DNA of 64,000 bases from Paenisporosarcina sp. FSL H8-0542 (GTDB lineage Bacteria; Bacillota; Bacilli; Bacillales_A; Planococcaceae), in contig NZ_CP152050.1 of the NCBI RefSeq assembly GCF_038632915.1, positions 104,001 through 168,000 on the forward strand. Direction: 5' to 3'. The position numbers and the translations under genes were made by a program. Numbering within the stretch: position 1 is the stretch's first letter; each line of letters opens with the position of its first letter. Shown here in pieces: positions 42,770 through 48,209 of the stretch. The notes beneath the pieces were generated by a model. The model made no database searches. It worked only from the letters and a program-made list of their open reading frames with translations, and was not told where the DNA came from.

Positions 42770-42891
42770 CATTTTACACGAAAAATAGATTTAACCTATG
42801 CTATGACAAAGAAGTATTCTTGGAGAAATTCGGACGCCTTCAAGTGCCGCAACGTGAAATAATGTTCAAGCTGTTTTATGTAGGTGAATAA
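42770..42891 (+). pseudogene. Possible 3' gene fragment, unidentified
   Basis: A frame without start codon runs to TAA at 42889 and encodes KEVFLEKFGRLQVPQREIMF, then KLFYVGE. It looks protein-like, and a strong terminator starts ten bases after its stop, so it may be the tail of a lost gene. Family unknown. The remainder of the gene-free stretch 42716-43050 holds that terminator and the yolD promoter. Confidence 0.35.
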
Positions 42892-44336: not shown

Positions 44337-44451
44337 AGTTATTCAACTGCTTTCATTTTATCGTTTTATGAGAATTTTCCATCAAATTGAGATCTCTAGA
44401 TCAGGTTCCGTTATACTGAATATACCAGAATATGAGAGAAGGTAGATGGAA

Positions 44452-44880
44452 ATGTCAGTTGCACATGTATCATCCAAAGTGAACTTGGATTTCTTAATAA
44501 ATGAATTGGGGTTACGCCAAGAACGGAATACAACGATTTTTAATAAAGGTAGCATCTTTGTAATCTCGCCTTCTGTTCAGAATAAGTATAATTGGTTCGA
44601 TATTGGTGAATCGATCATGGGAAATTATAATGCAAAAGAGCAAGAAGGCTATCTCCTTGTTCGATTTAAAGACAAATATTTAATGGCAAAACTTGAGCCT
44701 TTTCAGCGGAAAATGATGTTACGGTCAACTATGCCCAACACAACAAAATTAAGACCGCATTGGAAATTCAAAGTAGAGGAAGGTGCTAATCCTTATATAA
44801 TAAATATGGGGGATAGTGATCTGAGATATCCGATTAAAATGCCTAGTGAGAATCAATTGAAAAAGTTTTTTAATAAGTAA
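44452..44880 (+). CDS. Hypothetical protein, first gene of the NUDIX-helicase module
   Basis: A 142-residue protein with no recognised motif: mixed alpha/beta, basic, with FDIGESIMGNYN and GYLLVRFKDKYLMAKLEPFQ as distinctive segments. ATG at 44452 lies nine bases after AGAAGG; an ATG six bases earlier is too near. Its stop overlaps an alternative NUDIX start (TAATG) and lies 18 bases before the preferred one, so it is cotranscribed. Sequence is AT-rich like the two following genes, suggesting shared origin. Confidence 0.75.
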   Translation: MSVAHVSSKVNLDFLINELGLRQERNTTIFNKGSIFVISPSVQNKYNWFDIGESIMGNYNAKEQEGYLLVRFKDKYLMAKLEPFQRKMMLRSTMPNTTKLRPHWKFKVEEGANPYIINMGDSDLRYPIKMPSENQLKKFFNK

Positions 44881-44897
44881 TGTTAGGAGAACAAGAA

Positions 44898-45311
44898 ATG
44901 AAAAAGCATATAAATGTTGTAGCAGCGGTAATACATAATGATGAAAATAAAATTCTGTGTGCACTTCGCTCTCCAGTGATGGCTCTACCGAACTTATGGG
45001 AGTTTCCCGGTGGAAAAATTGAAAAAGGGGAAAGTCATGAAATCGCATTAGTTAGGGAAATTCAAGAAGAACTTGGTGTGCATATTGTAGTTGGCGACAA
45101 AGTAGAGGATACATATTTTGAGTATGATACTTTCACAATTCAACTAACTTCATATTTAGCAAAAATTACAGAAGGAAATTTACAACCAACGGAACATGCT
45201 GAACTTAAATGGTTAACAATTAATAATTTAGACGAACTAAACTGGGCACCAGCTGATATTCCGGCAGTAGAAAAACTAAAAAAATTATTTAAAATAAAGC
45301 AGGTGCTATAG
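44898..45311 (+). CDS. MutT/NUDIX hydrolase (8-oxo-dGTP diphosphatase type)
   Basis: A 137-residue NUDIX enzyme. The box runs from G38 (GGKIEKGE, then REIQEELG) to about residue 60, with the metal-binding glutamates in place. The overall pattern VAAVIHNDENKILCALRSP with WEFPGGK resembles MutT, which removes 8-oxo-dGTP or related nucleotides. ATG at 44898 follows TAGGAG; the stop abuts the helicase GTG. Tight coupling to a helicase suggests a joint role in nucleic-acid quality control or defence. Confidence 0.9.
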   Translation: MKKHINVVAAVIHNDENKILCALRSPVMALPNLWEFPGGKIEKGESHEIALVREIQEELGVHIVVGDKVEDTYFEYDTFTIQLTSYLAKITEGNLQPTEHAELKWLTINNLDELNWAPADIPAVEKLKKLFKIKQVL

Positions 45312-48209
45312 GTGGGGGAATTTCTTCGGAATTTAGAAGAGTCTTTACATAAAGGATTTATTAATCAAAATTTTATTACGCCAGGTTCCTATAAGCCACA
45401 ATTATTAGTGAACAATACTGTTGAAAATGAGAATGTTTTATCGACTTTATTAGATGAATTAGAGCATTGTGAAACCTTTTTGTTTTCAGTGGCCTTTATT
45501 ACTGAAAGCGGTCTTGCTACATTAAAAGCTCATTTTCATGACTTAAAATTAAAAGGCGTTCATGGACGAATATTAACTTCGACATTTTTGCAATTTAATC
45601 AACCAAAAGTATTTAAAGAGCTCTTAAAAATTGAGAATGTAAAAGTACGGCTATCAGATATTAAAGGATTTCATTCAAAAGGGTACATTTTTCAACACTC
45701 GACTTATTATTCTTTAATCGTAGGAAGTTCCAACCTGACTTCACATGCTCTTAAGGTGAATTATGAGTGGAACATCAAACTTACAACACATGAAAATGGG
45801 GAAATTATTCATCACTTTCAAAACCAATTTGAGGATGTTTGGGAGAAATCTCAAGAATTATCCTCTGAATGGATTAGTGAATATGAAAAAGTTTATATAG
45901 AAACTGTTGAAAAGAAAAAGATGGAGAAAGTAATCGAAGGCTTTGAAGAATATAAAATTAATAACCTTGAAACTGCACTAAAGATTAGTCCTAATAAGAT
46001 GCAGACCGAAGCATTGTTAAATATTGAAAGCATGCGAACTGAAAAAGATAAGGGGTTAATTATTTCGGCTACTGGAACCGGGAAAACATATTTATCAGCA
46101 TTTGATGTTAGAAAATATGCACCCAAAAAGATGTTATTTATTGTCCACAGAGAACAGATATTACAAAAAGCAAAATCTGATTATAAAAAAATATTAGGTG
46201 GATACGATGATGAATTTGGAATTTTGTCAGGCACAATAAAAGAAACGAATGCTAAGTATTTATTTGCCACCATTCAAACATTGTCTAAAGATAGTATGCT
46301 TACTCAGTTTGAACAGGATGAGTTTGATTACATTTTAATAGATGAAGTACACAAAGCAGGTGCACAATCTTATCATAAGGTGATAAATTATTTTCGACCG
46401 AAATTTTTAATGGGTATGACAGCAACACCCGAAAGAACAGATTCATTCAATATATATGAGTTATTTGATTTTAACGTGGCTTATGAAATTAGACTTCAGA
46501 AGGCATTAGAGGAAGATATGCTTTGTCCCTTCCATTATTTTGGGGTTACAGATTTAGAAATCAATGGGGAATTAATTGATGATACAGCGCAATTCTCTAA
46601 ATTAATTACTGAAGAACGAGTTAATCATATTGTCGAGAAGATTGAGTACTATGGATTTTCCGGAGAAGCAGTAAAAGGCTTAATGTTTTGTAGTAGGAAA
46701 GATGAAACAACGGAGCTTTCTAGACTCCTAAATGAAAGAGGGTATCGAACTGTTGCCTTAACAGGAGACGATTCTCAAGACGAACGGATTAAAAGAGTTA
46801 TTGAACTAGAAAATGGAGAACTTGATTATATTTTAACGGTAGATATCTTTAATGAAGGTATTGATATCCCAAGTGTTAATCAAGTAGTAATGCTCAGACA
46901 AACACAATCAAGCATTATTTTCATTCAACAACTTGGACGAGGGTTACGTAAACATGAATCAAAAGATTTTGTAACCATTATTGACTTTATTGGAAATTAC
47001 AAAAATAACTATCTTATTCCAGTGGCTTTATCTGGGGATCAATCACAAAATAAAGACAATATCAGACGGAAATTAAATGACACTAGCTATATTAAAGGTA
47101 TATCGACAGTTATTTTTGAAGGCATTGCGAAAGATCAAATCTATAAGTCGATTAACAACACGAAGTTAACACAACTAGCATTACTTAAAGATGCCTTTGA
47201 AAAATTGAAAAATCGAATTGGACATATTCCATATTTATACGATTTTGTAATCAACGAGTCTTTAGATCCTGTAGCCATTATGTCAGAACACGATGACTAC
47301 TATGCTTTTCTAAAAAAGATTAAACAGGAAATTCCTCAAATAAATGACTATCAAAAACAGGTTTTAACTATGTTCTCTCAAGAAATATTAAACGGTAAAC
47401 GAAAGCATGAACTGATATTAGTACAGCTTCTTATTCAACAGGGAAGTGTTCTAGTTGATGACTATAAGACTGTTTTAATTGATAACAACTGTAGATACGA
47501 TGATGCCACATTGGAGTCTGTTTACCGAGTACTTGATTTATCGTTTTTCACCAGTGGGAATAAGAAGAAATACGGTTCTGAACCCTTGATTTTTATACAA
47601 GACGAAAGAATTAAGCTGAATCAACACATTAAGAATAGCATTGAAAATAATGCTTATTTCCTGCATTTAGTAGAGGACATTATTAATAGTGGACTAGCGA
47701 AAAGTGAAGGTTATGACTGCCAAGAAAAACTGACGTTATTTAAGAAATATTCCAGAAAAGATGCGTGTAAATTATTAAATTGGAATCAAGATGAAACATC
47801 AACTATGTATGGATATAAAATAAAACATCAAACATGCCCAATATTTGTAACGTACCATAAACATGATGAAGTTGAGTCAAGCGTAGCTTATGGAGATGAA
47901 TTCATCGATCAAAATTTATTTAAATGGTATACACGCAGCAATCGAACATTAGAGTCACAAGAAGTAAACAAAATAATAAATGCACAAAAAAACAATGTTG
48001 ATATTCATTTCTTTGTAAAAAAAGATAATGGTGAGGGAAATGATTTTTACTATTTGGGAGAAGTAAAACTAGACCCCAAAAGTGTTGCTCAAGAACAAAT
48101 GAAGGATAAAAACGGGAAGACTCTTCCGGTGGTAACAATGAATATGCAATTTGAAAATCCAGTAAATAGTAATTTATATCATTACTTACGATCAGAAACA
48201 ATTTCTTAA
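45312..48209 (+). CDS. PLD-domain SF2 helicase with DUF3427 C-terminus
   Basis: A 965-residue multidomain protein. Residues about 30-170 form a phospholipase-D-like nuclease domain (H121-S-K123 and GSSNLTS from 138). An SF2 helicase follows: Walker A ATGTGKT at 253-259, DEVH at 344-347, GMTATPERTD near 368, and QQLGRGLRKHE near 540. The C-terminal third is DUF3427, with DIHFFVKKDNGEGNDFYYLG. Such proteins may cut or remodel DNA. GTG start, directly abutting the NUDIX stop. AT-rich compared with the flanks, pointing to transfer. Confidence 0.9.
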   Translation: MGEFLRNLEESLHKGFINQNFITPGSYKPQLLVNNTVENENVLSTLLDELEHCETFLFSVAFITESGLATLKAHFHDLKLKGVHGRILTSTFLQFNQPKVFKELLKIENVKVRLSDIKGFHSKGYIFQHSTYYSLIVGSSNLTSHALKVNYEWNIKLTTHENGEIIHHFQNQFEDVWEKSQELSSEWISEYEKVYIETVEKKKMEKVIEGFEEYKINNLETALKISPNKMQTEALLNIESMRTEKDKGLIISATGTGKTYLSAFDVRKYAPKKMLFIVHREQILQKAKSDYKKILGGYDDEFGILSGTIKETNAKYLFATIQTLSKDSMLTQFEQDEFDYILIDEVHKAGAQSYHKVINYFRPKFLMGMTATPERTDSFNIYELFDFNVAYEIRLQKALEEDMLCPFHYFGVTDLEINGELIDDTAQFSKLITEERVNHIVEKIEYYGFSGEAVKGLMFCSRKDETTELSRLLNERGYRTVALTGDDSQDERIKRVIELENGELDYILTVDIFNEGIDIPSVNQVVMLRQTQSSIIFIQQLGRGLRKHESKDFVTIIDFIGNYKNNYLIPVALSGDQSQNKDNIRRKLNDTSYIKGISTVIFEGIAKDQIYKSINNTKLTQLALLKDAFEKLKNRIGHIPYLYDFVINESLDPVAIMSEHDDYYAFLKKIKQEIPQINDYQKQVLTMFSQEILNGKRKHELILVQLLIQQGSVLVDDYKTVLIDNNCRYDDATLESVYRVLDLSFFTSGNKKKYGSEPLIFIQDERIKLNQHIKNSIENNAYFLHLVEDIINSGLAKSEGYDCQEKLTLFKKYSRKDACKLLNWNQDETSTMYGYKIKHQTCPIFVTYHKHDEVESSVAYGDEFIDQNLFKWYTRSNRTLESQEVNKIINAQKNNVDIHFFVKKDNGEGNDFYYLGEVKLDPKSVAQEQMKDKNGKTLPVVTMNMQFENPVNSNLYHYLRSETIS

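Follow-up and report, generated by a model that had tools for sequence, protein, structure and literature searches.

A conserved NUDIX–SauUSI gene pair in Paenisporosarcina and its proposed role as a type IV restriction module

The window analysed here is a stretch of 64,000 nucleotides from Paenisporosarcina sp. FSL H8-0542 (contig NZ_CP152050.1, positions 104,001 to 168,000). Its ORF (open reading frame) listing contains three adjoining genes, all on the + strand: gene 1 (44452..44880), gene 2, encoding a MutT/NudG-like NUDIX protein (44898..45311), and gene 3, encoding a homologue of the restriction enzyme SauUSI (45312..48209). Judged by homology, gene 3 is a SauUSI-family type IV, 5-methylcytosine (5mC)-dependent restriction enzyme and adds one more member to a family already known. 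The conserved unit is the NUDIX + SauUSI pair and not the trio. We consider it on balance probable that the pair is a two-gene type IV restriction module in which the NUDIX protein would protect the host by sanitizing the nucleotide pool, gene 1 being optional. The near-constant NUDIX partner is a known yet unexplained adjacency, for which there is now a specific hypothesis.

The SauUSI-type enzyme and its NUDIX neighbour

Gene 3 starts with a GTG codon immediately after the stop codon of gene 2. Pfam recognizes a PLDc_2 nuclease domain (residues 72–177; 45525..45842, + strand), an SF2 ATPase motor (45981..46952, +) composed of ResIII (residues 224–375) and Helicase_C (residues 453–547), and DUF3427 (residues 687–959; 47370..48188, +; E 2.6e-89). 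Residues 2–960 align to SauUSI (PDB 7clg) with 965 bits, and the PADLOC profile mREase_IV is matched with E 1.9e-300. The first-pass annotation of this DNA, made from the letters alone, had proposed a PLD domain, a complete SF2 motor and a NUDIX enzyme, with damaged or foreign nucleic acid as the suggested target. Pfam recovers all three, and the family identity of gene 3 supports foreign DNA as the target; the view that the PLD/SF2/DUF3427 design was unfamiliar has to be abandoned, as it is that of SauUSI. Mokosh type II, which also combines a PLD nuclease with a helicase (of superfamily SF1), was considered and rejected, since the 22 PADLOC families matching gene 3 include no Mokosh model.

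SauUSI is described as a type IV enzyme whose cleavage substrate is S5mCNGS DNA, with either 5mC or 5-hydroxymethylcytosine (5hmC); it combines a PLD nuclease with a translocase driven by ATP and, at the C-terminus, a reader of the SRA fold (PMC7913695, PMC3874153). Gene 3 shares its PLD–SF2–coupler–SRA order over the full length, and by homology DUF3427 would comprise a portion of the SauUSI coupler plus the SRA-like 5mC reader; DUF3427 has been predicted elsewhere too as a binder of modified DNA (PMC7159879). The PLD HxK motif is present (H121/K123) and found in 84 of 85 aligned rows, some of which are duplicates of one locus, and the Walker A/B residues K258, T259, D344 and E345 are identical in all 85. 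Three of the five 5mC-pocket residues of SauUSI are retained (Y831, F841 and W868) and I842 is replaced by Val, the pocket residues of gene 3 being Y835, F845, V846 and W872.

Gene 2 lies within ORF 44880/44898–45311, with the ATG at 44898, after TTAGGAG, as the favoured start. It carries a NUDIX domain (PF00293, 67.3 bits; cut-off 21.1) and matches the PADLOC candidate PDC-S07 (E 5e-54), a model of the same NUDIX family to which the library assigns no function.

The distribution of the pair was surveyed in 261 genomes of the order. The SauUSI class, defined in this analysis as profile hits with E <1e-230, has 105 members. In the coordinate listings, 101 of these are preceded on their own strand by a NUDIX gene at most 1500 bp away (the profile gap has a median of 42 bases), and the number of adjacent pairs rises to 103 with G033 and G250; in the latter genome, the nuclease gene is split and its N-terminal part adjoins the NUDIX gene. 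A further one of the 105, G161, has a NUDIX of unlisted position. A second class of PLD helicases, mostly of about 1050 amino acids (aa), is represented by 28 rows among the matches listed; the member scanned (in L023) has PLD, SF2 and DUF3427 domains. The NUDIX gene stands alongside in 25 of the 28 (23 by coordinates, plus G167 and G232), and six of the 23 are downstream and convergent. Seen from the other side, 124 of the 150 NUDIX places listed adjoin a nuclease of these lists.

The association extends beyond the order. Among 14 genomes of other orders of the same phylum with a hit at E 1e-150, 12 have the NUDIX, in three arrangements (upstream, downstream and convergent). Six plasmid records contain a gene 3 match covering at least 80% of the query, and five of them have a NUDIX next door: those of S. 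aureus, Latilactobacillus, Lactiplantibacillus, Limosilactobacillus and the bacteroidete Hymenobacter. The S. aureus NUDIX, directly upstream of the SauUSI match, is identical to the 126 residues compared of the solved protein 5x1x. Relatives of the NUDIX occur in 10 phage records, the best (56.7%) in two unannotated Staphylococcus ‘phage’ records. In a tree built from 120 NUDIX rows, 16 changes of label are needed for SauUSI (no fewer than 11 of them forced) and 10 for the second class (no fewer than 7 forced), the details of this tree being unsure owing to few columns and long branches. On the basis of the forced changes, it is clear that the NUDIX has been re-paired repeatedly with nuclease classes.

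The same adjacency has been recorded in Streptococcus, where the legend of Fig. 9 in PMC7641849 states that SauUSI has MutT neighbours, the legend section giving no function. PDC-S07 appears in PMC11514479 as a list entry only. We found no published function for the NUDIX–SauUSI pair in open-licence papers, among which MutT with SauUSI was not searched for as such.

Predicted substrate and proposed self-protection

The best PDB match of gene 2 is 5x1x, annotated ‘Mutator mutT protein’. The protein is also similar to E. coli NudG (2rrk; 73 bits in phmmer), another MutT-type NUDIX, with which it shares the APADIP and EH...W motifs. In an alignment with E. coli NudG and MutT, 68 of the 69 non-E. 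coli rows carry Asp, as in NudG, at the position that we take to be Asn119 of MutT; the remaining row is a truncated extraction. The gene differs from E. coli NudG in its linkage to a restriction enzyme, and its substrate is a prediction.

PMC5389931 lists NudG, through its structure 2RRK, as a 5-methyl-dCTP pyrophosphatase, and the kcat/Km of NudG on 5-methyl-dCTP is given as about 100 times that of MutT (PMC3744803). According to PMC10742078, this nucleotide is an excellent dCTP analogue that is readily incorporated, degraded methylated DNA may be its primary source, and both E. coli and mammals possess hydrolases dedicated to it (Orf135, another name for NudG, in the former; RS21-C6 and DCTPP1 in the latter). 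We propose that gene 2 encodes a putative 5-methyl-dCTP/5-hydroxymethyl-dCTP pyrophosphatase, because of its NudG-type Asp, the swapping of the partner between nuclease classes, and the avoidance of cytosine-C5 methyltransferases (C5-MTases) by the genomes that carry these nucleases.

This avoidance is observed across the order. The C5-MTase family PF00145 is matched at E 1e-20 in 36 of the 133 genomes with SauUSI or the second class, compared with 95 of the 128 genomes without them (Fisher p 1.5e-14). Stratification by genus, with the genus of G145 and G146 guessed, gives an odds ratio of 0.11 (p 2e-13). Such a pattern is expected if the enzymes cut 5mC DNA, because host 5mC would then be a target. 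Genomes with only a weaker mREase_IV match, presumably for the most part to a class of about 800 aa, show no avoidance (21 of 28, versus 74 of 99 without any match). The genome of the window (G000) has no PF00145 match at the same threshold.

A comparison within the species is consistent with this picture. In the genome G006, the match to the window ends at 44352 and starts anew at 48207, so that the stretch 44353..48206 (no strand assigned) has no DNA match at this site. Instead, G006 contains a segment (L251:2381-6285) with a C5-MTase (PF00145), a protein with the MutH domain PF02976, which occurs in Sau3AI-type enzymes, and a 380-aa gene without match. One species thus has, at one site, either a predicted 5mC-making or a predicted 5mC-cutting system, and the transferable cassette suspected in the first-pass annotation can be described as an exchangeable one.

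The explanation that we favour is as follows. Gene 3 would recognize 5mC or 5hmC in incoming DNA through its SRA-like C-terminal reader, translocate with ATP and cut with its PLD nuclease. Recognition, translocation and cleavage have been reported for SauUSI (PMC7913695, PMC3874153), and we infer from the full-length homology and the conserved residues that gene 3 acts in the same way. Modified nucleotides would arise from degraded foreign DNA or from phage synthesis; a cell that shreds methylated DNA would create its own 5-methyl-dCTP hazard. The NUDIX protein would hydrolyse 5-methyl-dCTP, and perhaps 5-hydroxymethyl-dCTP, so that the host polymerase could not build modified bases into the chromosome and no self-target would appear. 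Pool sanitation would then be the self-protection of the module, and gene 1 an optional DNA-binding module, of the type heading McrB-like proteins, placed before the pair.

Type IV enzymes are usually viewed as partnerless, the host simply having no target modification. If a pool cleaner is the usual partner, salvage of modified nucleotides from destroyed foreign DNA would be a real autoimmunity risk and restriction would have a second form of self-protection besides methylation. In that case, a function could also be assigned to the solved S. aureus protein 5x1x and to the PADLOC candidate PDC-S07.

Several observations weigh against this proposal. The pairing has exceptions: there is no NUDIX in the 4 kb upstream of the SauUSI-class gene of G185 (1 of 105), no NUDIX match in the second-class genomes G002 and G134 (2 of 28, G198 being counted in neither group), none in L159 and L164 of the other orders (2 of 14), and none beside the gene 3 match of a Fusobacterium plasmid record (1 of 6). 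Since these loci do without one, the NUDIX is not strictly needed. The nuclease match of the S. aureus record is in four pieces and that of the Limosilactobacillus record in three, neither with an annotated gene, and the nuclease may be broken there. Conversely, 26 of the 150 listed NUDIX places are away from a listed nuclease; two of them (G189 and G250) do adjoin one on inspection, and others are alone or near other genes. At eight inspected loci of the genus g8, possibly Lysinibacillus (L131–L137 and L145), the NUDIX gene occurs singly and always in the same conserved surroundings, with no SauUSI within the 10-kb stretch. The avoidance of C5-MTases is likewise incomplete, as the 36 carriers that have one demonstrate. 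Gene 3 differs from SauUSI at two further positions: the cavity-filling Met829 is Tyr, and Glu126 of the PLD motif is Gln (Glu is present in 34 of the 85 aligned rows).

The substrate assignment has its own difficulties. Gene 2 scores 98.7 bits against the NudG equivalog model PRK10546, below the cut-off of 156, and is therefore related to, not classed as, a NudG equivalog. NudG is also credited with 2-hydroxy-dATP (PMC5389931), and with 5-hydroxy-CTP too; MutT itself is reported to have weak 5-methyl-dCTP activity (PMC3744803). Because the activities of MutT and NudG overlap or spread, a substrate inferred from motifs is a loose one. Finally, cloned SauUSI restricts in E. coli on its own, so that the NUDIX is not required for restriction (PMC3874153), which disfavours a direct role of the NUDIX in cutting.

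Two other roles for the NUDIX were considered, both of which we regard as unlikely, to about the same degree. The protein might be offensive, draining the hydroxymethyl-dCTP (hm-dCTP) or 5-methyl-dCTP of a phage, so that an unmodified phage meets ordinary restriction and a modified one meets gene 3. The predicted substrate and the operon logic would be the same, and some phages turn the dCTP pool into hm-dCTP (PMC3874153), but a phage whose modified nucleotides were removed would escape gene 3, the module has no enzyme against unmodified DNA, and single NUDIX copies occur without an adjacent SauUSI. Alternatively, gene 2 could be an ordinary MutT, acting on 8-oxo-dGTP and the like to limit mutagenesis after DNA breakage, in which case the link with SauUSI would be one of repair. 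This role has in its favour a borderline score against the mutT model TIGR00586 (97.9 bits, exactly on the cut-off of 97.9); against it stand the Asp at the Asn119 position, as in NudG, and the different kind of pyrophosphatase predicted beside a related nuclease class (see below).

A third nuclease class with a probable PRA-PH/MazG-like neighbour

The related class consists of PLD-SF2 proteins of about 800 aa, with no DUF3427 in the two members scanned and no NUDIX within 1500 bp in any of the 16 members listed. In all 16 (L077, L089, L090 and L234–L246), the nuclease gene is overlapped or almost touched at its 5′ end by a gene for a protein of about 108 aa starting with KLVRDxIP. The copy scanned scores 21.0 bits against PRA-PH, slightly below the cut-off of 21.3, and a relative in L193, located away from such a nuclease, scores 21.8 bits. 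By inference, the small protein would belong to the all-alpha nucleotide pyrophosphatase superfamily. In two lactobacilli, an annotated nucleotide pyrophosphohydrolase gene also follows SauUSI, and the one scanned is MazG-like (PF12643).

The small protein and the 800-aa helicase possibly form a second nuclease–pyrophosphatase pair. The data suggest, with the weak profile scores of the small protein as a limitation, that PLD-SF2 nucleases could generally be paired with a nucleotide pyrophosphatase. We put forward, tentatively and with less than even confidence, the broader idea that PLD-SF2 restriction enzymes carry a built-in pyrophosphatase for self-protection, a NUDIX for the two DUF3427 classes and an unrelated PRA-PH/MazG-like protein for the third, which would replace the methyltransferase of restriction–modification systems by keeping the recognized base out of the chromosome.

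Gene 1 and other features of the locus

Gene 1 (ORF 44446/44452–44880; 142–144 aa) has its favoured start, judged by sequence, at the ATG at 44452. No noteworthy match was found in Pfam, NCBIfam, PADLOC, PHROG or PDB sequences, in keeping with its description in the first-pass annotation as unrecognized. Its position before the module distinguishes this locus from that of SauUSI. The family is present in 75 of the 261 genomes, which represent 4 of the 19 genera. Of the 14 genomes with two copies, seven (G000, G003, G084, G089, G090, G101 and G104) have one of them at most 1 kb from a NUDIX gene; six of these seven loci belong to the SauUSI class (6 of its 105). In G001, G098 and G107, the second copy has C5-MTase, Vsr or MutH-type genes as neighbours, and the remaining G005, G007, G093 and G114 show no NUDIX. 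Neighbouring NUDIX–DUF3427 helicases, whose complete absence next to gene 1 homologues would have spoken against the grouping, do occur; among 24 loci found by similarity to gene 1, they are present only in L204. Most of the 24 are single core copies, and a marker search shows a SauUSI-like gene in L227.

In the sister species G004, which has a syntenic module, homology stops at 44433 and starts again at 44878, the gap corresponding exactly to gene 1. The earlier proposal of a three-gene module is not borne out by these counts, and the sensor or regulator role suggested for gene 1 is unlikely to be that of an obligate part. We consider it rather improbable that gene 1 acts as a third subunit or as a sensor in a three-gene system: its placement within 1 kb of the NUDIX in half of the two-copy genomes and its fusion to McrB-like AAA+ proteins in three genomes would fit, but it is found at so few SauUSI-class loci, is precisely absent from G004, and accompanies NUDIX and helicase in one of 24 similar loci. 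The least credible alternative is genomic hitchhiking of two small defence-island genes linked through chance and descent; although the members are related, many loci come from few genera and some NUDIX places are unlinked, adjacency in 103 of 105 loci, three arrangements, repeated re-pairing on the tree and the presence of the pair in S. aureus, lactobacilli and a bacteroidete make it very improbable.

Relatives of gene 1 have a PLD nuclease as neighbour in Salinibacillus and, in Paenibacillus, a NOV_C helicase together with a DUF1156 protein. The domain also forms the N-terminus of McrB-like AAA+ proteins in G233, G256 and G257 (AAA_5 in the member scanned), and these fusions (L190:5529-7088, L191:6813-8348 and L192:7786-9336) are followed by a DUF2357-PDDEXK_7-type protein. 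In McrB, the specificity module sits at the N-terminus (PMC7641849), and in the fusions the gene 1 domain is a candidate specificity domain. The arrangement recalls McrBC, from which the present locus differs in that gene 1 stands alone and its family matches no Pfam specificity domain. Since its domain is repeatedly found close to genes of cytosine methylation and at the N-terminus of McrB-like proteins, gene 1 is probably a DNA-reading or DNA-binding module, useful to the NUDIX–SauUSI pair and not required by it.

AlphaFold predicts, with good confidence, an alpha/beta protein for gene 1 (predicted local distance difference test, 89.6; 86.8 for a relative). There is no convincing fold match: the best Foldseek PDB hits are Hjc (E 1.5e-3 and 4e-3), template modelling (TM) scores among the best 50 matches do not exceed 0.46, and a viral fold library gives two matches with E <0.001 and TM <0.4. 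In 24 rows of the family, no acidic residue is invariant, D15 and E112 being nearly so; in view of this and the low TM scores, an active PD-(D/E)XK nuclease was not accepted. Among viral contigs, 22 stretches fitted the pattern of gene 1 relatives and none was confirmed. In two members of the genus (L023:10282-18977 and L025:12298-19001), genes resembling DndH, DndG and DndF lie beside gene 1 copies; they were identified in L023, and L025 shows same-looking starts.

All three genes are confirmed as real and unusually AT-rich relative to the window, as the first-pass annotation had noted against the flanks. The G + C content (GC) is 0.313–0.329 in the three 1-kb steps over 45–48 kb and 0.361–0.458 in the other 61 steps. 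In a ranking of 63 ORFs (130 aa or longer, picked mechanically), with the 64-kb window as sole reference, gene 3 has the lowest GC (0.316), gene 1 the third lowest and the NUDIX the fourth lowest; for GC at third codon positions, the NUDIX ranks lowest, gene 3 second and gene 1 eleventh. Core copies of the gene 1 family, conserved in the genus, are AT-rich as well (0.31–0.35), and the composition of gene 1 is therefore no proof of transfer by itself. The tight packing reported earlier holds: genes 2 and 3 abut, and between genes 1 and 2 the gap with the favoured starts is 17 bases and not 18.

Some NUDIX genes without an adjacent SauUSI have other neighbours. In L139:5173-7907 and L150:5786-8661, the genes nearby encode a Schlafen-group-3-type helicase (PADLOC PDC-S41) and an HNH protein that weakly resembles mREase_IV, the families having been scanned on the L139 copies only; this HNH cluster recurs in L147 and L148. 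Unpaired NUDIX genes are also found near McrBC, GmrSD, NgoFVII-like or HNH genes, in single loci or a handful, which is suggestive only. Upstream of the module, at 42801–42802, the window has about 0.7 kb fewer than G004; both G004 and G007 have a 245-aa gene there, by eye a metallophosphoesterase.

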